Positions 15,166 to 27,025 of a stretch of 64,000 nt of DNA are shown one piece after another. Made by a program: the position numbers and the translations under genes. How positions within the stretch are numbered: position 1 is the first letter of the stretch; each line of letters starts with the position of its first letter. Under the pieces are notes generated by a model. The model was not told where the DNA came from, did not search any database, and worked only from the letters and a program-made list of their open reading frames with translations. The stretch is taken from contig JADQAV010000008.1 in the NCBI GenBank assembly GCA_019775845.1, positions 868,001 through 932,000 of the forward strand, given 5' to 3'. The stretch is from Myrmaecium sp. VS I D KN 1. Taxonomy: Eukaryota; Ascomycota; Dothideomycetes; Valsariales; Valsariaceae.

Positions 15166-17126
15166 ATGTCTCGGCCGGGCTACTCCAACTTCCACTCCTC
15201 CGCACACCCTCCCCGGGACTCTCTCGAACTCGCCTCCCTCGCATCCTCCTCCCACAACTCCCACCGCTCCTCCGCGGAGTCCTCCGCCTCCGGCGCCCCC
15301 TCCTCCCGCCGCATCTCCTTCGAGAACGAAGATCCCTTGTCCGAGAACAACGCCGCGAACCTGAGCCGCCCCCGCGGCGGGCGCTCCTACTCCGTCTCCT
15401 CCGCCTTCGACTTCGCCTCCAACCTCTTCCCGCTCTCGTCCACGGCGGGAGGCTACACCGCGCTCGGCGCGCCGACCGACGCCGCCCTCGACCCCACGCA
15501 CACGCTGAACGGGGGCTCGTTGGAGAAGAACAAGACGCTCACCTACCTCAATGGCCTCTCCCTCGTCATCGGCCTCATCATCGGCTCCGGCATCTTCTCC
15601 TCGCCGAGCCAGGTCAATAAGAACGCGGGCTCGCCCGGTGCAGCGCTGGTCGTGTGGATCGTGGCGGGCGTGCTGGTATGGACGGGCGCGGCCAGTTACG
15701 CCGAGCTGGGAGGCGCGATCCCCCTGAACGGCGGCGCGCAGGTCTATCTGTCCAAGATCTTTGGCGAGTGGGCGGGTTTTCTGTTCACCTGGTGCGCGGT
15801 CATGGTGCTGAAGCCGGGCTCGGCGGCGATCATCGCCATCATCTTCGGGGAGTACGTTGTGCGGGCCGCCGTCGGCGCCGACGCGGTGGAGGTCAGCGTG
15901 TGGTTGAACAAGGGCGTCGCATTGGCCGGCCTGTTTCTGGTCACATTTTTGAACTGCCTCTCGACGAAGGTGGGCACGAGGAGCGCGGACGTGTTTATGT
16001 TCCTCAAATTTGTGGCCCTGCTCTTTGTCACCGTCACTGGAATTGCGGTCGCCATCACGGGGTTCAGTTGGAAGGGCAAGCCAAGCGAGGATTGGAAGGA
16101 GAAGGGCTGGTTTGAGGGGACGAATACCAATGTGTCCAGCTGGGCGGTGGCGCTCTACGCCGGTTTGTGGGCGTTCGATGGGTGGGACAATGTGAGCTAA
16201 ACCACCTCGTATTGGGATTTTCCTGACTGACAACGTGAACGCAGGTCAATTACGTGACGGGCGAATTCCGCAATCCTTCGCGAGACCTTCCCCGCGTCAT
16301 TCACACCTCTATCCCGCTCGTTATCTTCTTCTACGTACTAGCCAACATCTCCTACTTCCTCGTCCTCCCTTCTTCCATCCTGGAATCCACAAACACCGTC
16401 GCAGTCGCCTTTGGATCGCAAGTCTTCGGACCATTCGGATCGCTCGCTCTCGCCGTCCTGGTCTCATGCTCCTGCTTCGGCGCGCTCAACGCCACCATCT
16501 TCACCTCCGCGCGCCTCGTCTACGCCGCGGGGAAGGAAGGCTACCTGCCCGCGCAATTCGGCCAGCTGGGGCTCTCCTCCCGCCGACGCGCCATCCGCGT
16601 CGACCGGCAGCCGTCCTACGTGGGCGGGAGCCGAATCCAAAACTGGATCGCGGCGCACCTGGCCGACGCGGACGACGCGCACACCCTCTTCCACACGCCC
16701 ATCCCGGCCCTGCTGCTCAACACGGCGCTGACGAGCGTCTACGTGGTGCTGGGCGAGTTCGGCCCGCTGATCACCTTCTACGGCGTGGCCGGGTACACGT
16801 TCTACTTTTTGACGGTGCTGGGGCTCATCGTGCTGCGGGTCAAGGAGCCCGGTCTGGACCGGCCGTATCGCACCTGGATCTCTACCCCGATCATTTTCTG
16901 CTGCGTCAGCTTGTTCTTGCTCTCCCGCGCCGTGTTCGCGGAGCCGCTGCAGAGTCTGGGCGTGCTTGCGTTTGTGCTGGCGGGTGTGCCGGTGTGGTGG
17001 TGGATGGTGGGGCGACGGGAGCAGGAAAGGGGAACCCGCCGTGGCAGACGGTTTGGCGGGAGGGAGGGGGGGCTGGAGCAGGAGAAGAGGGGTGGTGGGT
17101 GGAGGTTTTGGCGACGGTGGCGGTGA
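15166..17126 (+). CDS. LAT-family amino-acid permease
   Basis: This is a plasma-membrane amino-acid transporter of the APC superfamily, L-type (LAT/b0,+-like) branch, which in fungi includes the methionine permease group. Exons are 15166-16191 and 16245-17126, giving 635 residues. The intron (GTGAGC donor, CTGACTGAC branch, CGCAG acceptor) joins AFDGWDN to VNYVTGEFRNPSRDLPR. A Ser-rich cytosolic N-terminus of about 120 residues precedes about twelve helices. Helix 1 has the diagnostic GLIIGSGIFSSP. The substrate contact segment WAFDGWDN and the late GVAGYTFYFLTVLGLIVLR agree with fungal LAT proteins. The tail is Gly/Arg-rich. The substrate is not decided by the sequence. A short upstream frame lies in its leader. 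Confidence 0.92.
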
Positions 17127-17659
17127 GGGTGGGGAGATAATGGGGAGTAGGAGTAGGTGGATGATGTCCGGTGGGAATATTTCTATTGCCGTGGTTGGCT
17201 TATGACGCTTGATTCGACTGAGGATCGGATCTTGTATATGATATTTTGGGGTTGATGGGCTATGGGCGTAGCCAGACATCGGGGTCTTTTCTTCTGGGGA
17301 CATAACTTGCTGGCGCTGCTGGCGCTGCTGGCTGGTAGATGCATTACAATATTGACTGTATGACTATTTGTAAATGAAATGAGTCCCGTATCATTATCCG
17401 GGTGTAACTCAGGATAGTAGACATGGCAGGGAATGGACGATGAACTCTCTTGATAATATGAAGTGCAAGCACACTTCAAGTCCCAAAGGCGGAGAGCCTT
17501 TCGGGATGTACAGTGAATGGATTTATCTCTCATTCCCGCGCGGAGTCCGGGCCGGAGGACCCTGATCTCGGCTCCGCGGGGGATCTGGGGAAAGCAAAGG
17601 CGATAGAAGCTTGGCCGGACTGACGTCGTGGGTATTAACCTCTCCTTCCCTCCCACACC
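17127..17659. other. Spacer between permease and HUS1
   Basis: This 533-base spacer lies between two plus-strand genes. A short GCTGCTGGC repeat lies near 17310-17335. I see no gene or clear core promoter element. Confidence 0.45.
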
Positions 17660-19101
17660 ATGCGCTTCAAAGCGTCTATCCAGAACATCACCACTTTCAC
17701 CAGTCAGTTCACACCTCTTGTCTTGGATTTTTTGATTCTTAAGGCCATTGGTTCACTAACCGACTTCCCATCCCCGCAGAGTTCACCGCTTCGCTCGCCT
17801 CCCTCGGGCCCATCGCGTGGGTCCGCTTCAGCGAGCATGATGTCCGCTTCACCATCATACCGGAGCAGGGCACGCAGGTCTGGGCGTAAGTGATGCGCTT
17901 CGAGTTTCCTTCCCTGAGACACATCACATTCCGCTATCGTAAGCTTATTCTAACCGCGCAACTCTCCTTCACTCAGCGTGCTTGCGATCGTGAGTGTCCC
18001 AATGGCGCGACTGTTCCCACCTCGGCTTCTTCCTTCGACCGCTAATCATATATCCCGGATCGGCGCGCATTTATAGGACACCATCTTCGACGCCTATTCG
18101 ATCCAATCCGCCGCCGGCAACGTGATCAACCTCGAAGTACCCCTAACCTCGCTTCACCGCGCGCTCAAATCGGCGCTCCAAGCCACCGCGGCCTCCATCC
18201 GACTCACCAAAAAGGACAACATCCCCCTCCTCGCCCTCACCATCGTCACCAGCACACTCAATCACGGCGGGAACGGCACCGGCTTCGGCGTCGCCACGCC
18301 GCGCGATCACAACAACCACAGCCAAGAGGGCAGCACATTCGAGTTCGCCCTGGGCGGCGGCGGCCGGGAACGCGAGACGACGGTGACGCAGGAGATCCCG
18401 GTGCGGGTGCTGAGCCCGGCGAACGTGGAAGGGATCCACGAGCCCCGCTGCCGAGAACCAGACGTGCACATCCTCCTCCCGCCCCTCCTGCAGCTCAAGA
18501 GCATCTCGGACCGCTTCACGAAGCTGGCCATGACGGCTAAGGCGGCGGCGGGGACGGGGACCACGACCGGGGTGGCGGCCCCCAAGCTCGAGATGGCGGC
18601 CAACATGCACGGCTGCTTGAGGCTGAGCATCCGTACGGACGCGATGCGCATCGCCAGCCTCTGGACGGGGCTGACGAACCCGGAACTCGATCCGGACGTC
18701 GTCGGCGGCGCGGACGCCGTCGCGAACCATCCCACCACCCGCATGAAGGAGCTCGGCGCGGCGGATGGCCGGAGCGAGGAAGGATGGGCGCAGGTCCGGA
18801 TCGATGGGCGGGATTGGTCGAAGGTGATGTCGGTGGGGAGGATGGGGGGGAAGGTGATTGCTTGTGAGTTTGGCTGTCGCTGTCATTGGGGAGTGTCGTT
18901 GGCTAATGGGGCGCGACTGGGGTAGGTTTTTGCCATGAGCACGCTCTTATTCTTTATGTTTACCTGCCGAATGACGATGAGGGGCGGGAGGACTCTGTTT
19001 TGACGGTGAGCTATTTGCTTTTCTTACTCTCCATCCACGGCTGTGAAGCAGCACTCCTCTGATGCCAGTAATAGTACTACGTGAGCTCGTACAGTGCGTG
19101 A
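17660..19101 (+). CDS. HUS1: HUS1 DNA-damage checkpoint clamp subunit
   Basis: Hus1 is the PCNA-like subunit of the 9-1-1 clamp (Rad9-Hus1-Rad1) loaded at damaged DNA to activate the checkpoint. Six exons: 17660-17702, 17780-17885, 17977-17989, 18077-18863, 18926-19005 and 19075-19101, giving 351 residues. Exon 3 is a 13-base microexon (codons for VLAI plus a split Ala). The N-terminus reads MRFKASIQNITTFTKFTASL across the first junction, followed by GPIAWVRFSEHDVRF. The C-terminus reads CFCHEHALILYVYLPNDDEG, then YYVSSYSA, a typical Hus1 end. The intron 1 donor is the uncommon GTCAGT. A Gly/Ala/Thr-rich insert interrupts the middle (about residues 205-220). Confidence 0.92.
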
Positions 19102-20538
19102 GGATACAGAAATCATCTACTCTCGCACGCAACATCTACAGATAATTCAGCACCGGGTAAGGTTTCCTCCGCCGACGGGTTCGAAACCGAGAAGCTCGAG
19201 TACTCGGGACGAGATCTCATCAAGAGGAAGCGGGAAGAAAGAGCAAGAAGAGTGTCTCGGCGTTCTTATGTGATAGGGAGTTCGGGTGGCTCGTTTTGTC
19301 GTTGCTTATGGGGTATATGAAGCGTCTTTTCTTTTCAACTTCCTTTTATTCTTTTATTTCTTAGCCTTCCGAACTAAGAGCCTCGCGGTGACAGAAGGAG
19401 GAGTATATATCACCACGACAAGGGACAGGTCAAAGATTCATTGCACACTGCAATAATCCAGCGTCATTTTCTTCCGGGTACGTCGAAAAGATGTGGGTGG
19501 CTCTTGCAATCACTCTGGCTTCCATGTCTGCTTCTCTCTTTTTCATTTTTCCCCCTTCCTTTTCGATTCTCTTTTTCTTTCACCCTTCTGCCGATCCGAT
19601 GCGCGTGGCTTTCAATGAGCAAGAGAAGAAGAAAAAAACAAGAACATCAGAAAAGTAAAGGCGGTCCAGAAACAAAAGGAAGAGAGATCAAGCAGCCAAG
19701 CTGCTGGGTCATGCTCTGCACAAGCGGGAGTGAGGCTAGATCGTTCAAGAAGAAGTCATAACGGAGACAGCATCTTCTGACATAAAAAGCGGAAGCAAGG
19801 AAGAAGAAAAGATAAAACAAAGAACGCCGGTACGCTATGCTATTTTTTATCATCTATCAATCCTTTTGAAACAAGGAGAAGAAACCAAAAACTTAACGCC
19901 AAAACATGGATGCAAACGATAGAAGCGGAAGAACGCGAAAGACGAAGGGAAAAAAAGCAAAACGCAAAATGTAGAGCCGTCTAATAAGGGAACACATAAG
20001 AGATGCGTGAGAAGAAGAGCGGAGAAGAACAAGAACGCAAGACCAGAAACGCCTCGATGCATGAAGAAAGGAAGGAAGACGCTGTGAAGAGAAGAGGAAG
20101 CAAAAGAAAAAGACAAAGCCGCGCCGTCCCAATGCTCACGCTCATGCTCATGCTCATGCAGATGCAGATGCTCGCACGCTCGCTGTGCCCGTGTCCGTGG
20201 AAATGCCAGATGCCCCATCGCTAAACGACATGAAGATTAAGAAGAAAAGAAGGACACCAACGCTATGCCAATGCCAATGATAATGATGATGATGAACGGA
20301 CGCTCAGAACGCAGATGTAGCGGCGAGAAAAGAAAAAGCCGAAGGAAGAAAAACGAGGGGAAAGACCAGGACCGGGAAGAAGGATGTCGATTTTCATTTC
20401 TTCGTGTGTTATTTTTGTTTTATCGTATGAGATGTGCGGTCGTTGCAGTTCATTTCGCGTTGCGCCAGAGAAAAAAGGCAGGAAAAGGGAGACGGAGCGA
20501 AGAGTCAGGTCGATAACGAAGCAACCCATCCGAACGGA
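19102..20538. other. Gene-free, purine-rich on plus strand
   Basis: This stretch covers the HUS1 3' side and the probable 3' untranslated region of the small minus-strand gene ending at 20539. The plus strand is rich in A and AAG/GAA runs from about 19610 to 20520, so a minus-strand transcript would be U/C-rich. Open frames here translate the low-complexity sequence and are not credible. Confidence 0.5.
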
Positions 20539-20667
20539 TTAGTTGTACCCGCCACGACCGAGACCCAGAGAGACGCCGACGACGACGCTGAGGATGCGGT
20601 GGAAGGTGCTTGTCGGCGCGCTGGCGGCCGAGGAGGCGGAGACGACGTTGTACCCGTCGCGGCCCAT
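20539..20667 (-). CDS. Small 42-residue protein, Gly-Arg-x-Gly-Tyr-Asn ends
   Basis: I do not recognise the family. The frame runs ATG 20667 to TAA 20539 without introns. The protein starts MGRDGYNVV and ends GLGRGGYN, so a GR(D/G)GYN motif stands at both ends. Between them are a Ser/Ala/Thr-rich stretch and a hydrophobic segment, ILSVVVGVSLGLG, long enough for a short membrane or fibril-like core. The ATG context ATCACAATGG is strong. Upstream on the same strand is a TATA box at 21404-21394, then a leader of about 690 bases with CAACAACAACAAG and CT-rich tracts. That leader contains no ATG at all before this one (20668-21382), while the opposite strand has many. This supports a real, probably well-expressed gene. 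Its function is unknown. Confidence 0.62.
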   Translation of the reverse strand: MGRDGYNVVSASSAASAPTSTFHRILSVVVGVSLGLGRGGYN

Positions 20668-21382
20668 TGTGATGATGTTTTGGTGGTTTGCGGAGTTGGA
20701 GATCAGGGTTGGACCTGTCACTGTGGAAGGAGATTTTGGTAGGTGTAGGCTGGATTGGATTGTGTCTCTCGCTGCAGTCCGTATGAGGTGGCAGTAGGTC
20801 TTGCTGGTTGGAATTGGGTGGATGTCTGAGAATGCTATGCCAGGTAACGGTAGCGGAGTCAAACGTCGATGGGATGAGAAGAGTGAGGAGGTGAGAGGTG
20901 TGTCAGTGTGGATTGACGGTCTTTTAACAATTCGAGGTGAGGAAGAGAGACAGAGAGAGAGAGAGAGAGGGAAAGACAGGGAAGCTGAAAGACTGATGAC
21001 CGCCGGTTTGACTCAGAGAAACGAGAACGGAAAGAGACGAGGCGCAGTGGACTTGGAGAAATAGGACGGGAAGAGAGAGAAATTAAAGGATTTGGCTGTG
21101 AAAATTGTGTGGGAAGAAAAAGGTTGACTGATGGTTGGCTGGAGACTCCGGGAGGAGATAGGGGGCACTGAAAATGTTGGAGCCTAACGTGCCAGAACGC
21201 GGGAGAGGAAGATGATGAAACAGTAACCGGAAAGAAAAAAAAAATGACGATGACGAGTAAAGAGGAAATTGATGCTGAGAAAGTGAAAACGCTGATACGA
21301 ACTGATGCTGGTGGATATTGCTGCTTCTTGTTGTTGTTGCTTGTGACTTGAGATGATGAGGGAGCCGAACTCGAGACCTGAA
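20668..21382 (-). promoter_or_regulatory. AUG-free pyrimidine-rich 5' leader of the small gene
   Basis: Reading the minus strand, there is no ATG in these 715 bases, against about eleven expected by chance. It includes a CT dinucleotide tract (20970-20943) and a CAACAAC-rich start near 21340. This is what a long leader scanned to its first AUG should look like. Leader introns cannot be excluded. Confidence 0.6.
20943..20970. repeat. GA/CT dinucleotide tract
   Basis: Nearly pure GA on the plus strand, CT on the transcribed strand of the small gene. Such tracts are common in fungal leaders and promoters. Confidence 0.8.
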
Positions 21383-21393
21383 CATGCCCGGGT

Positions 21394-21404
21394 CCTTATA
21401 TATC
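21394..21404 (-). promoter_or_regulatory. TATA box of the small gene
   Basis: The minus strand reads GATATATAAGG, a near-consensus TATA element. It would place transcription start at about 21375-21350, just inside the ATG-free leader. Confidence 0.6.
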
Positions 21405-21530
21405 TCTTCGACCGTCGGTTTTCCATTCTCACTGTACGACCAGTATGCGAGGTACAATGCCGTACCCTGCCCCCAGCAGGCCCCGAGTACCTGGTCAGAA
21501 CGACAGTCCCGGTCTCGATCGGTGTCCAGG

Positions 21531-21590
21531 GATGGATGGATGGATGGATGGACGGACGGACGAAGGTGAGGTGAGGTGAGGTAAGGCAAG
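21531..21590 (+). repeat. GGAT/GGAC repeat followed by GGTGA repeat
   Basis: About five GATG units and three GACG units (21531-21562) run into GGTGA units and degenerate GGCAA units (21566-21600). Confidence 0.85.
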
Positions 21591-21954
21591 GCAGGGCAAG
21601 GTCAGGGTCCAGGGTAAGGCTGAAGGACAACCGGTAGGTAGTACCTGAGAGTACATTAACATCACTTACCTGGTTTACGAGTCGGCGAAACGAGAGGATT
21701 GTAAGCTGGCAATGGGCCGGTCGGCCATCCAGGCCAGGCAGCTTACCCACCTACCTTTACTGCCTGCCTTACTTACCTGAGGTAGGCAAAAGGGAACCTG
21801 GCGCAGGCAGAACAGGCACCACAGGCACACACCAGATGCACGCCGATCGATGGCTTGGATGGATGGATGAGCTGCATGGTCATGGTTCTTCCGTCGCACG
21901 GGAAAAACAGTCATCGTTCGATTAACTGTGAACCGGGGATGGTCGAGATGGCCG

Positions 21955-21972
21955 GTGCGTGTGTGTGTGTGG
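21955..21972 (+). repeat. GT dinucleotide repeat
   Basis: A short run of alternating GT, followed by a GA-rich stretch at 21985-22003. Confidence 0.8.
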
Positions 21973-22855
21973 AGGAAACAAAGATAGAGTGAGAGAGAGA
22001 GAACAGGTGGTGGTGGGAGCCGCAGCGCTAAAGGTGGGAAAACGAAGCGAACGTGCTGACCTACTACCTACTCCCGTCGTTCCATTCCATTCAGCCCAGT
22101 CACCAGTGCAGCAGCCGAGAATAGGTAAGGCAGGTACAGTATAATAAGTAGTACCCAAGTAGGTAAGTCACAGCGAGGATCAGAATGAAAGGTAGTAAGG
22201 TAGTAGTAATGTAAGGTAAGATGATACACGGGAAACATACTGACATAGCCACGGGAACCGGACGTAATGAGGCGGATGAGGATCCGTTCCAGCATGTGTT
22301 TCGTGTTTTCCGTAGGTAATCCCGTCCTCTCGAGTCGGAGTCGGAGCCGGAGTCGGTCGGAGGAACACAGAAGGGCAGTCTGACGGAATGACCGATTACT
22401 CATCCCTTGACCAGGCACGTATCGACGGTGACTGGGTTAAGGTATGGGACAGGTGTGCTCTATTGTATGTCCGGTGGTTAAATCCGATGGGATATCTACC
22501 ATGTACCTATGTAGTTCACCTATCAGAAGCAAGATCTGCCTATTACTGTGACCAACCATGGTCTATCCTCACCAATCATCTCGTCGCATCGTAATTCCCC
22601 CGTCACTTTACCCCTCCAACAAGTTATTTTTATACAATCACAATGGAACCCTGCAACCCACCACCTCCGCCCTACAACCGTCCCGTCCGAACGGATGTCG
22701 GTACCTACATACATACCTGAAGATACACCACCACATTACAATTAACCGCCCCATTCGATCTTATCCTTCCATGCAGATGGCGGATGATGTCGTGCCCGCC
22801 GGTGTCCGTCCACGGGAAGGATGGAACCGCGTGGAAGCCAGCTGCAAGGTACGAT

Positions 22856-22938
22856 TCCTTCATCCCTTCATCCCTTCCTTCATTCCTTCATTCCTTCATT
22901 CCTTCATTCCTTCCATCCTCCATCCTTCATCCTTCATG
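22856..22938 (+). repeat. TTCATCCC / TTCATTCC tandem repeat
   Basis: About nine units of an 8-base repeat, changing gradually from CATCCCTT to CATTCCTT to CATCCTT. Confidence 0.85.
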
Positions 22939-23330
22939 ACATATCACTCGTTTCCGCGGAACTCGTATGTACCATATCAATATGCCCCCCCCACGCTCTT
23001 GCTCGTGGCGCATTCCCCAATGAAATGGCTAGATCCTATTCGAGAAGCCCCGTGGGGGAGGACAGGGCTGAGCGAATTAACTTACTACGCCAGCCGTCCC
23101 TCCATATAGGAAATGGTCAGTGAGTAAAGATAGCTGAGAGAGATGGAGGGAGGGAGAGGTTACGCGCGCACAAGGGAAGGGACCAACAGAATCGACGGAC
23201 GAGTGACGGCCATGTTCGACTCATCCATTCGATCACCTTGCCTGCTCGCGATCTTTCGCAATGGAACATCGCCAGCGGGATAATATGACAGACATCATCG
23301 AACGAGATCGTGCACTGGAGCACATACGCA

Positions 23331-23355
23331 GACAGGCAGGCAGGCAGGCAGGCAG
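23331..23355 (+). repeat. CAGG tetranucleotide repeat
   Basis: About six GCAG/CAGG units. The same unit recurs at 24189-24263. Confidence 0.85.
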
Positions 23356-24188
23356 CAAAGCCCACTGCCACCTTCTCGAGCACCTTTGCTTTCCTTCAAA
23401 ACTGTCCCCAGTGCTCGTGAACCTAAGATACCCGATCGATCGGTTCGGTTCTTGTGCTCCGCGTGTAGCCACTGACTAATTCAATCTCACCCCTCCCCCC
23501 TCCATCCCTTCATTAGCATTCTTGGAATTTGGCAGGGAGGGGAAGGAAAAAGGAGAAGGAAGGGATGAACCATGCACCCGAATTGTCATCAGAACATGCT
23601 CCAGGGGTGAGGAAGGGGTGCGGACGAAGCTAGTCCTGTCAGCAAGGCTGGGGGGTGTGGAGGGGTGGAGGGATGGAGGGGGAAAAAAGGCCCTAAATAA
23701 CCCTCTCAGCCGCGCACTAAAAAGACCCCAAATCAAGCAACGGAAGTGTAACCGAGCCGGGGTGGCGTAGAGGCATATACCAAATCCGGTTGATTTTGCG
23801 GCCTTTTTTTTGCTTTCTGGGTGAGATGGGTTGTAACGTGAGTCGCTCGGACCCTGCATACATGTATGCATGTACAGTATGCAAGTGAAGGTGAACGAGA
23901 TCAAGTCGGTACATAGTAGTTACCTGCACCTGGGCTCCTCAGTGAATGAATGACTGACTCATCTACGATCTGGATAAGTCATCCAGTCTGTCCTGAGGTG
24001 AGTCCTTCTTCTTCTTCGAGGGCGGCTGAGGCTGACTGACGAGGCTGACGCTTGTAGAACGTCCATCTCGTGCGTGACATGACGTTCGGCATCCTTCCCG
24101 CGCCGTGGCTTTTTTTCGTCGCGTCGTTTCTTATGATTCGTGCCGCTATCAATTTCAATCTCGACCTTCACGCTGCGAGATTGCTCCG

Positions 24189-24263
24189 CAGGCAGGCAGG
24201 CAGGCAGACAGGCAGACAGGCAGACAGGCAGGCAGACAGACAGACAGACAGGCAGACAGGCAG
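24189..24263 (+). repeat. CAGG / CAGA mixed tetranucleotide repeat
   Basis: About eighteen units alternating GGCA and GACA, the longest simple repeat in the window. Confidence 0.88.
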
Positions 24264-24473
24264 CCTAGTAGGCAGACCAACCACATCCATCCATCCATCG
24301 AAGGATTGCTCGCTGCAGATGGCACATAACCCATCCTTCCTTCTACCTTACATAACAAAACCGCAAATCGTGGGGTCCAAAAGCATGCAGAACGATAGAC
24401 GATGAATAAAGATGGCTCACGAACACTGCATGCAAGATGTCGTACGTCACACGTCGACAAGGCTGAGGCCTTG

Positions 24474-24515
24474 CGCCCTCCGCCCTCCGCCCTCCGCCCT
24501 ACGCCCTCCGCCCTA
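24474..24515 (+). repeat. GCCCTCC heptanucleotide repeat
   Basis: About six units of CGCCCTC, two of them with A in place of C. Confidence 0.85.
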
Positions 24516-24663
24516 CATATGCATTGAGATGCGCCCACATCCAAACCCATGCCCATGCCCATATCCCATGTCCACGGTCGCATCAATACCAATATCGGTG
24601 ACTCTAAACCCGTGCCGTCGCTTCCAACGTGCCGTCCTTGCAACCGTCGTCGTTCCCTGCATG

Positions 24664-24706
24664 GTACATCGTATATCGTACATCGTGCATCGTACATCAT
24701 ACATAC
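24664..24706 (+). repeat. TACATCG heptanucleotide repeat
   Basis: About six degenerate units of GTACATC. Confidence 0.75.
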
Positions 24707-24964
24707 TCAAGATCCCTCCGCATATGCTCGAGACCGTGACTCAACGAGAGGCTGTACCCGTCCCGCTCCTCTTTGCTCGCTTCCCAATCGCATGCATGAC
24801 GGAGAGTGACTGCCATCGGCCAGATTATCGTCTTTCTCTTCTTTCCCTACTCTTTCCCCCTGCTTTCTTTGAGAAACCAGAAAGGGTCGGTATAGAACCT
24901 CACGCGACCGCTCTTCGGCAAGGGACTCCACGATTGGAATGCCATCGAGTCGCGATGCCGTTGT

Positions 24965-27025
24965 TCACTTCCCCACGCAGAACCTAAAGTTCATCTAGTC
25001 AGTCCTTGTCCCCAGGCCTCGTCTGATTGCCTCGCAACCAGCGCTTCCTCACCAGAGCTTAGAGACCAAAGGGGTAGAATTGAACTTACTTCTCAAAAAC
25101 CACCCCCAAAACCTCCTCCACATCCCCGCCCTCCCCCCTCCCCGTGATCCGCGCCAAACACTCCGCCGCCCTCCGCAGCTCCTCCGCCGCCATCACAATA
25201 TCCACCTCCGCATCCTCCACCACCGCCTCTTCATCGAAAGTGCCATCCAGATGCCCCTCGCGCGGCCGATACACCTGTCCCACAAACGCATCCAAATGGC
25301 CCAGACAATCCGCGAGCAGCAAGCGCTGCCGCTCCGACGCGCCAAGGGACTCAGCAAAGAACGACGGGTCCGGCGCCTCCGCCCCGGCGACGCCCTCCGG
25401 GACCGTCGGCGCCGTCAGCCGCTCGAACGCGCGGATCACGCCGGCACGAAGCAGGTGCTGAACGCGCCCCGGATCGCCGCGCGTGGCCTGCCGGCCGGCC
25501 GGCCGGTCGGCGTCTTCGGCTCGCTTGCAGGAGATGAAGAACAGCTGCTCCCGGTCAAGCTGAGGCCATTGAGCGACGACGCGATCCTCAATCGCTTTCA
25601 GGGCTCTGGCGTCAAAGTCGTCCGGGAGGAGGTCGCTTTTGTTGATGGCGACCACCACCTGCACCTCGCGTTCTAGACACCGGGCCACTGTGTTCGCGAC
25701 ATCTGGGCTGATACTGACTCCGAACTGTTTGCGATCTTCCGTCGGGGCCAGCGGCAGCAACACGATCAGCACATGCGATTCCAGAGCGCGCTCTTTGGCG
25801 AGCTCGATACCCCGCTTCTCAATGGCCCCAAGCGAGCTGGCGGATGCATCGCTCGCACTGGCTGCGTCCGGGTTGCTCCTCAGGCCCGCCGTGTCGCCAA
25901 GTCTGCAGAACCAGCCGTCCAAATCCACACCGACTTCGACGACGTCTCTGGTCGTCCCCGCCTCCGTGCTCACGATGGCCGCCTCGCGACCGACGATGCG
26001 GTTCAGCAACGAACTCTTCCCGGCGTTCGGCTCTCCCAACAACGACACGGCCATGCCGTTCCGCAACAGCTCGCCCTTCATCGCGTTCCGCTCATGCGCC
26101 TCGATCTGCGCCATGAGCACCGACACCTTCTGCGCAACGCTGCTCGCCAGTTCCGCGGGCGATTCATCGAAATGTTGGTCCTCGGAGAAGTCGATAAGCG
26201 CCTCCAACTCGCCGCGTGCCTCCACCAACTCCTTCCGCCAATCCTCAAACCGCTTACCGAGCGCGCTGGTTACACCACGTACAGACAGCTTCCGCTGCTG
26301 CTCGGTCTGCGCCGAGAGGGTATCTCCCAAGGCCTCGATCTGCGTGAGGTCCATCCGGTCGTGCAGGAAGGCGCGCCGGGTGAACTCGCCGGCTTCGGCG
26401 TAGCGGATCCGTCCCGGCGTCCCGGCGCCGCATTGCGGGATCGCGGCCAGCACGGCCTTGACGATCGCCGGCCCGCCGTGGACGTGCAGCTCCAGGATGT
26501 CTTCGCCTGTTACCGTGCGCGGGCTGGGGAAGTAGAGCACCAGTGCGCCGGCGTCGAGGATGTTCTCGCGCGTGGGAGGGGCTGAGGGAGTGTAGAGGGT
26601 GCGGAGGGCGGCGAAGCGGGGTTTGGGCAGGGGCTTGTCGGGGCAGAGGCCGTGATAGATCTGTAGGGACCCGAAGTCAGAAAGGTATTGGTGCTTAATG
26701 ATAGTGGCAGACGTGATCCGCATACCTCCTTGCAGGCGCTACCGGACACTCGTATCACGGCAATCGCCGCTTTTCCCGGCGCGGTGGAAAGGGCGTAGAT
26801 GGTTGGCTCGTCGTAGACCGGCTCCGGAGGCCTCTGCTCCGTTACGTTGTGGTGGTGAAGAGTCCTGAAGGCATTGCTGCTGCGCGGAGGAAGAAGCCTG
26901 CTAGGACGGCCCAGGACCGGCCGCAGCCGGACGCTCGGCAATGCTCGTCCTGGTGCCGGACATGTCGGCGCAGGTTCCGGGAGTCGCAGACGTTTCGCGG
27001 AACGGAGTGCCGCTCTCATTCCCAA
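24965..27025 (-). CDS. MSS1: Mitochondrial tRNA-modifying GTPase (MnmE/TrmE family)
   Basis: Mss1/MnmE works with Mto1/MnmG to add the 5-carboxymethylaminomethyl-type group to wobble uridine of mitochondrial tRNAs. Exons are 27025-26726, 26660-25090 and 24983-24965, giving 629 residues. The last exon is only 19 bases. It completes the C-terminus as EKFCVGK, restoring the catalytic Cys and the invariant GK end of the family. Without it the frame would end at VFEK in a GTAAGT donor. The N-terminus is a presequence. TIYALSTAPGKAAIAVIRVSG is the start of the formyl-THF-binding domain, and the G domain has GEPNAGKSSLLN (about 307-318), GTTRD, DTAGLR and NKSD. It is divergent from MAK16. Confidence 0.95.

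Follow-up and report, generated by a model that had tools for sequence, protein, structure and literature searches.

A probable small-protein gene behind a long ATG-free leader in the fungus Myrmaecium sp. VS I D KN 1

The question raised by this locus is whether a minus-strand open reading frame (ORF) of only 42 codons, preceded by a long run of DNA with no ATG, is a gene. The ORF lies in a 64,000-nucleotide stretch (the window, C64:868001-932000) of a genome of 25.66 Mb in 66 contigs. As originally predicted, the minus strand carried a 42-codon frame ending in TAA (Table 1); its product runs MGRDGYN...GRGGYN from the ATG at 20667 to the TAA at 20539, and the start context, CACAATGGG, was strong as claimed, with A at -3 and G at +4. 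When the genome was searched with the DNA of 20539-21404, the single match was the query itself. No paralogue was found in a protein search of the same genome with residues 2-42, which returned only the ORF itself at E <= 10. The locus probably contains an intact gene, likely unannotated, that has a single exon, would be transcribed by RNA polymerase II and encodes a protein of 42 residues. The comparison set of 264 kb combined the window with 20 stretches of its contig.

Table 1. Features at and around the 42-codon ORF (positions in the window)
Feature	Position	Strand	Basis
Open frame with Hus1 domain (HUS1), convergent with the ORF	18077..18925	+	Pfam PF04005, E 1.3e-59
A-rich stretch GATAAAACAAAAATAAC..., possible 3'-end signal	20404..20424	-	Sequence
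42-codon ORF, MGRDGYNVVSASSAASAPTSTFHRILSVVVGVSLGLGRGGYN, probable complete coding sequence	20667..20539	-	Sequence, ORF list, codon scores
Putative 5' leader, ATG-free, pyrimidine-rich	20668..21382	-	Sequence, ATG counts
ATG that, if transcribed, would open another frame of 100 codons (21083-21385)	21383..21385	-	ORF list, ATG count
Candidate TATA box TATATAAGG	21402..21394	-	Sequence
MSS1/TrmE (MnmE) GTPase gene, upstream neighbour, same strand	25086..26738	-	Pfam PF12631, PF10396, PF01926

Codon usage of the ORF

The codon usage of the ORF resembled that of the genome's genes in one frame only. With a codon model built on 4881 codons from ten clear open frames in the window (the 42-codon ORF excluded), the log-likelihood over the 42 codons was 20.1 bits, and 18.5 bits when only synonymous choices were scored; the five other frames over the same bases reached at most 7.6 (full) and 8.4 (synonymous) bits. 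From this codon signal, the ORF is likely to be a translated gene. A different explanation is that a chance frame lies within a non-coding transcript or in intergenic DNA that is not transcribed, and that its codon bias is a GC-rich accident; we regard this as unlikely. The GC content of the ORF did exceed that of its flanks, as such an accident would have it. However, the bias was specific to codon position and frame, with GC at positions 1, 2 and 3 of 0.62, 0.57 and 0.88, indicating that the signal was more than a GC-rich patch. When the ORF body was shuffled with dinucleotides preserved, the synonymous score was reached in 1 of 5000 shuffles and the full score in none of 5000; GC at the third position was reached in 16 of 5000.

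The in-frame score was also followed in blocks of ten codons. Upstream of the ATG, 11 of 13 blocks were negative (one of them holding a penalised stop), the positive ones being +1.2 at 21057-21028 and +2.9 directly before ATG 20667. All four blocks inside the ORF were positive. The 3' edge was blurred: the block with the TAA was negative only via the stop penalty (synonymous +1.5), the first block past it scored +3.1 and two further blocks were negative. The codon signal rises at ATG 20667, which argues against a chance frame, and its fall at the TAA is less sharp, which argues for one.

The top ranks among real and simulated ORFs likewise speak against chance. The 264 kb contained 776 ORFs of 35-60 codons, of which the target was first by full and third by synonymous score under the first model. 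Retraining on mostly Pfam-supported stretches (3691 codons, HUS1 left out of the background) raised its scores to 22.9 full and 21.6 synonymous, third by both among the 776; among the 421 ORFs overlapping no open frame of at least 180 codons, it was then second by full and first by synonymous score. Nineteen ORFs, the target included, had at least 300 ATG-free bases upstream, and none of the others matched its synonymous score. Non-coding sequence simulated over 4 Mb contained 8654 ORFs, none of which reached either score; this simulation held no GC patches, so the ranks in real sequence and the ORF-body shuffles were the fairer controls. The leading synonymous rank among the 421, the empty simulation and the rise at the ATG support the hidden small gene of the original prediction, whose main argument, the leader, was weaker than stated. 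One 56-codon ORF on the minus strand of another stretch (L019, from 8553) had a full score of 23.5 under the retrained model, compared with 22.9 for the target, and may be an exon belonging to an ordinary gene.

Leader, candidate promoter and neighbouring genes

The minus strand was free of ATG for 715 bases. The claim that no ATG follows the TATA box held for this long run, and failed for an ATG at 21385, nine positions past the TATA end. Within 21404-20539, the minus strand had two ATGs (21385 and 20667) and the plus strand 21, agreeing with the more than fifteen predicted for the opposite strand. The bases of 21380-20668 were rich in C and T, as had been described, with G at 85 of 713. The earlier estimate of about eleven ATGs by chance was too high, having assumed equal base frequencies; 5.5 were expected by base composition and 2.5 by dinucleotide-preserving shuffles. 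ATG-free leaders arose in 6.3% of 5000 such shuffles, showing that the leader by itself is weak evidence; the same figure counts in favour of a chance frame. Nevertheless, on neither strand did the window contain another gap as long, and in the 264 kb this one ranked 5th of 8116; all four that exceeded it lay in one stretch of 25-27% GC. Composition-matched windows (700 bases, stepped by 350) were a control of little use: 15 of 17 had at least three ATGs and the other two overlapped the leader itself, the 350-base steps leaving no control window wholly inside the ATG-free gap. The ATG-free leader is out of the ordinary, yet not convincing alone. A leader of 700 bases is long for a 42-residue product, which counts against the small-gene reading.

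The stretch with the four longer gaps (L009, C64:200001-210000) was AT-rich, with gaps of 25-27% GC and ATG-free runs of up to 3541 bases, the window overall having 57% GC; it is perhaps RIP-mutated or centromeric. A (TCCG/TCCA)n simple repeat occupied 21531-21560 of the window, slightly upstream of the candidate promoter. Another simple repeat, at 24155-24405, gave open frames on both strands, RQTDRQTD-like on one and CLPVCLPACLP-like on the other.

The minus-strand TATA box predicted at 21404-21394 was present as TATATAAGG. The match was weak on its own because the 8-mer TATATAAG occurred 31 times on both strands of the 264 kb (16 times without the AT-rich stretch). An ATG nine positions past TATATAAGG would normally fall upstream of a TATA-positioned start; ATG 21385 thus probably sits upstream of the transcript start, which probably lies somewhere in 21375-21340. 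Provided that the start is downstream of 21385, ATG 20667 would be the first AUG of the putative mRNA, in good context. In the small-gene reading, a TATA-driven minus-strand mRNA would begin some tens of bases beyond 21394, and ribosomes would scan along a pyrimidine-rich leader of roughly 690 bases that lacks AUG. Translation would then start at AUG 20667 and stop at TAA 20539, giving a protein that is presumed stable.

Coding potential was scanned in 120-base windows across 17100-25200, a length at which very short exons can escape. The windows above threshold started at 17760, at 18090-18720 (HUS1) and at 20490-20610 (the ORF and its edge, the window at 20490 passing on a plus-strand frame), so that the ORF was the sole coding-like segment seen by the scan in about 6 kb. 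An amino-acid permease gene lay on the plus strand, further left than HUS1. A scan of 16500-26800 against Rfam at E <= 1 gave one match only, whose 19.5 bits compare with a gathering score of 160, and no tRNA was found in a tRNA scan of the window.

That the scan found no main ORF after it on its own strand disfavours two further readings, an upstream ORF and a longer spliced gene. As an upstream ORF, the 42 codons would encode a leader peptide that controls a larger product encoded by the same transcript, as the fungal cpc-1 leaders do. Long leaders with upstream ORFs are indeed known in Pezizomycotina, cpc-1 among them (PMC5487733). At this locus, however, no minus-strand window of 120 bases between 20490 and 18950 passed the coding threshold, and hence no main coding sequence was seen downstream on the same strand in that scan. 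The open frame that follows, at 20263-20529 (88 codons), had no Pfam match at E <= 1. With the convergent HUS1 next in its path, the ORF is probably not a leader ORF, and we consider that role very improbable. A programmed frameshift into 20263-20529 was rejected, as Pfam gave no family for that frame at E <= 1 and the coding scan showed no window above threshold on the minus strand there.

If the ORF were instead an exon of a spliced gene for a longer protein, the other exons of that gene would have been missed, and the 120-base scan can miss very short ones. The frame is open upstream to 21012, and donor-like GTAAGT sites occur at 21669 and 21776. An intron from 21669 joined in frame would, however, need more than 650 bases, which is large for a fungus. 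No window was above threshold on either strand from 20667 upstream to 25080, the in-frame score was mostly negative across the open upstream part, and ATG 20667 coincided with the rise of the signal, making this exon reading quite unlikely. No donor-like GTANGY or GTGAGT site was present within the leader (20668-21382), and no AG usable as a splice acceptor occurred for about 138 bases past the stop.

The predicted protein and its end motifs

The predicted protein of the small gene is basic, with a mass of 4.2 kDa and a pI of about 10. The hydrophobic core of the original prediction was present as ILSVVVGVSLG, with an 11-residue Kyte-Doolittle mean of 2.4, but it was short: the best 19-residue mean was 1.2, and the roughly 19 or more consecutive hydrophobic residues of a single-pass membrane segment were not found. 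The hydrophobic moment reached 0.56 at STFHRILSVVV. AlphaFold2 run on the single sequence gave helices at 4-16 and 21-37, with a mean pLDDT of 73.7 and a pTM of 0.43, which is weak evidence without an alignment. The FHRILSVVVGVSLGLG segment may form a short hydrophobic, partly amphipathic helix, and this helix might attach to a membrane surface or to a partner protein. An alpha- or a-type pheromone precursor was rejected because no CAAX end and no dibasic repeats were seen by eye under the usual motif definitions. N-myristoylation was rejected because an arginine following the N-terminal glycine disfavours it.

With residues 2-42 as query, no family was found in Pfam at E <= 1 or in NCBIfam at E <= 10, and the best PDB match was at the level of chance (E 1.6), in agreement with the earlier statement that no described family was known. 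The exact two-ended degenerate pattern had no match in prokaryote and viral contigs, a result with no bearing on fungi. The protein was not named in the available parts of the small-ORF literature. It appears to be undescribed as far as Pfam, NCBIfam, PDB and that literature tell, fungal proteomes lying outside these. That no homologue or paralogue turned up in its own genome, Pfam, NCBIfam or PDB is also what a chance frame would give.

Both ends read GR(D/G)GYN, GRDGYN at the start and GRGGYN at the end, as originally noted. This end-to-end hexapeptide repeat was unusual to a moderate degree: shuffled proteins did as well in 22 of 3000 cases, and a repeat as long as the underlying one of 10 bases arose in 3.7% of 3000 DNA shuffles. 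Degenerate DNA for GR(D/E/G)GYN matched the genome 14 times, compared with 3 times for the reversed control. Eight of these matches were in one calpain-like gene on contig C57, two in the ORF and one (GRGGYN) in a 56-codon glycine-rich frame that looked RNA-binding-like by eye; the other three (contigs C10, C28 and C34) were chance-like. With 8 of 14 matches in one gene and 3 of 14 chance-like, the hexapeptide was rejected as the mark of a gene family. Exact GRDGYN was limited, among the 14 matches, to the C57 array and the ORF start; copies split by an intron would escape.

The C57 array (C57:435881-436099, L028-L035) consisted of two GRGGYN and six tandem GRDGYN and formed the C-terminal tail of the calpain-like protein. 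Three pieces of the part upstream of it matched PF00648, the calpain catalytic family (E 2.7e-24, 3.4e-12 and 1.6e-6); the first contains two in-frame TAG that presumably lie within an intron. The tail frame alone gave E 0.092 for PF00648. The closest C57 copy differed from the GRDGYN codons of the ORF at 2 of 18 bases by eye. Since GRDGYN occurs in this tail and GRGGYN in the glycine-rich RNA-binding-like frame, the ends resemble RG-type motifs, and each end motif looks like an RG-type element. By eye, the ORF had one unit at each end, not the several units and disordered glycine-rich tract of an RG/RGG-rich protein. Both ends could serve as short RG-type contact motifs. A functional tie of the ORF to the calpain-like tail is possible; its basis is a match over six residues, and that match was specifically looked for. 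That the ORF represents an undescribed fungal microprotein family whose ends mimic the tandem GRDGYN tail, competing for or bridging its partner, is a highly speculative idea to which we give little credence. The common hexapeptide is one concrete link.

Comparison with known systems

An unannotated small-protein gene is a known kind of gene, of which this appears to be an undescribed member. If translated, the protein is one that normal annotation cut-offs would discard and that codon bias in a single genome brought out, and genes this small are easily under-counted in fungi. Leaders of the cpc-1/GCN4 type are alike in length and in carrying a short ORF, the cpc-1 leader having more than 700 nt and two upstream ORFs (PMC5487733), compared with about 700 bases here. 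They differ in what follows, no main ORF being found after the 42 codons on the minus strand and HUS1 being convergent with them.

In RG/RGG-rich tails, GRGGYN does occur in print, inside the PY-NLS RSGGNHRRNGRGGRGGYNRRNNGYHPY of yeast Hrp1 (PMC8140498, PMC9311884), and it recurs in the glycine-rich RNA-binding-like frame of this genome; GRDGYN was not found in the literature searched. Unlike such tails, the ORF has one motif per end, no PY and a predicted hydrophobic helix between. The C57 calpain-like protein shares the hexapeptides through its tail, whereas it is large and by eye has no similarity to the ORF outside them. With unannotated small-ORF (microprotein) genes, the ORF shares a short, intergenic, codon-biased frame with its own putative promoter and leader; it differs in the unusual length of its AUG-free leader and in that its translation is predicted from sequence.
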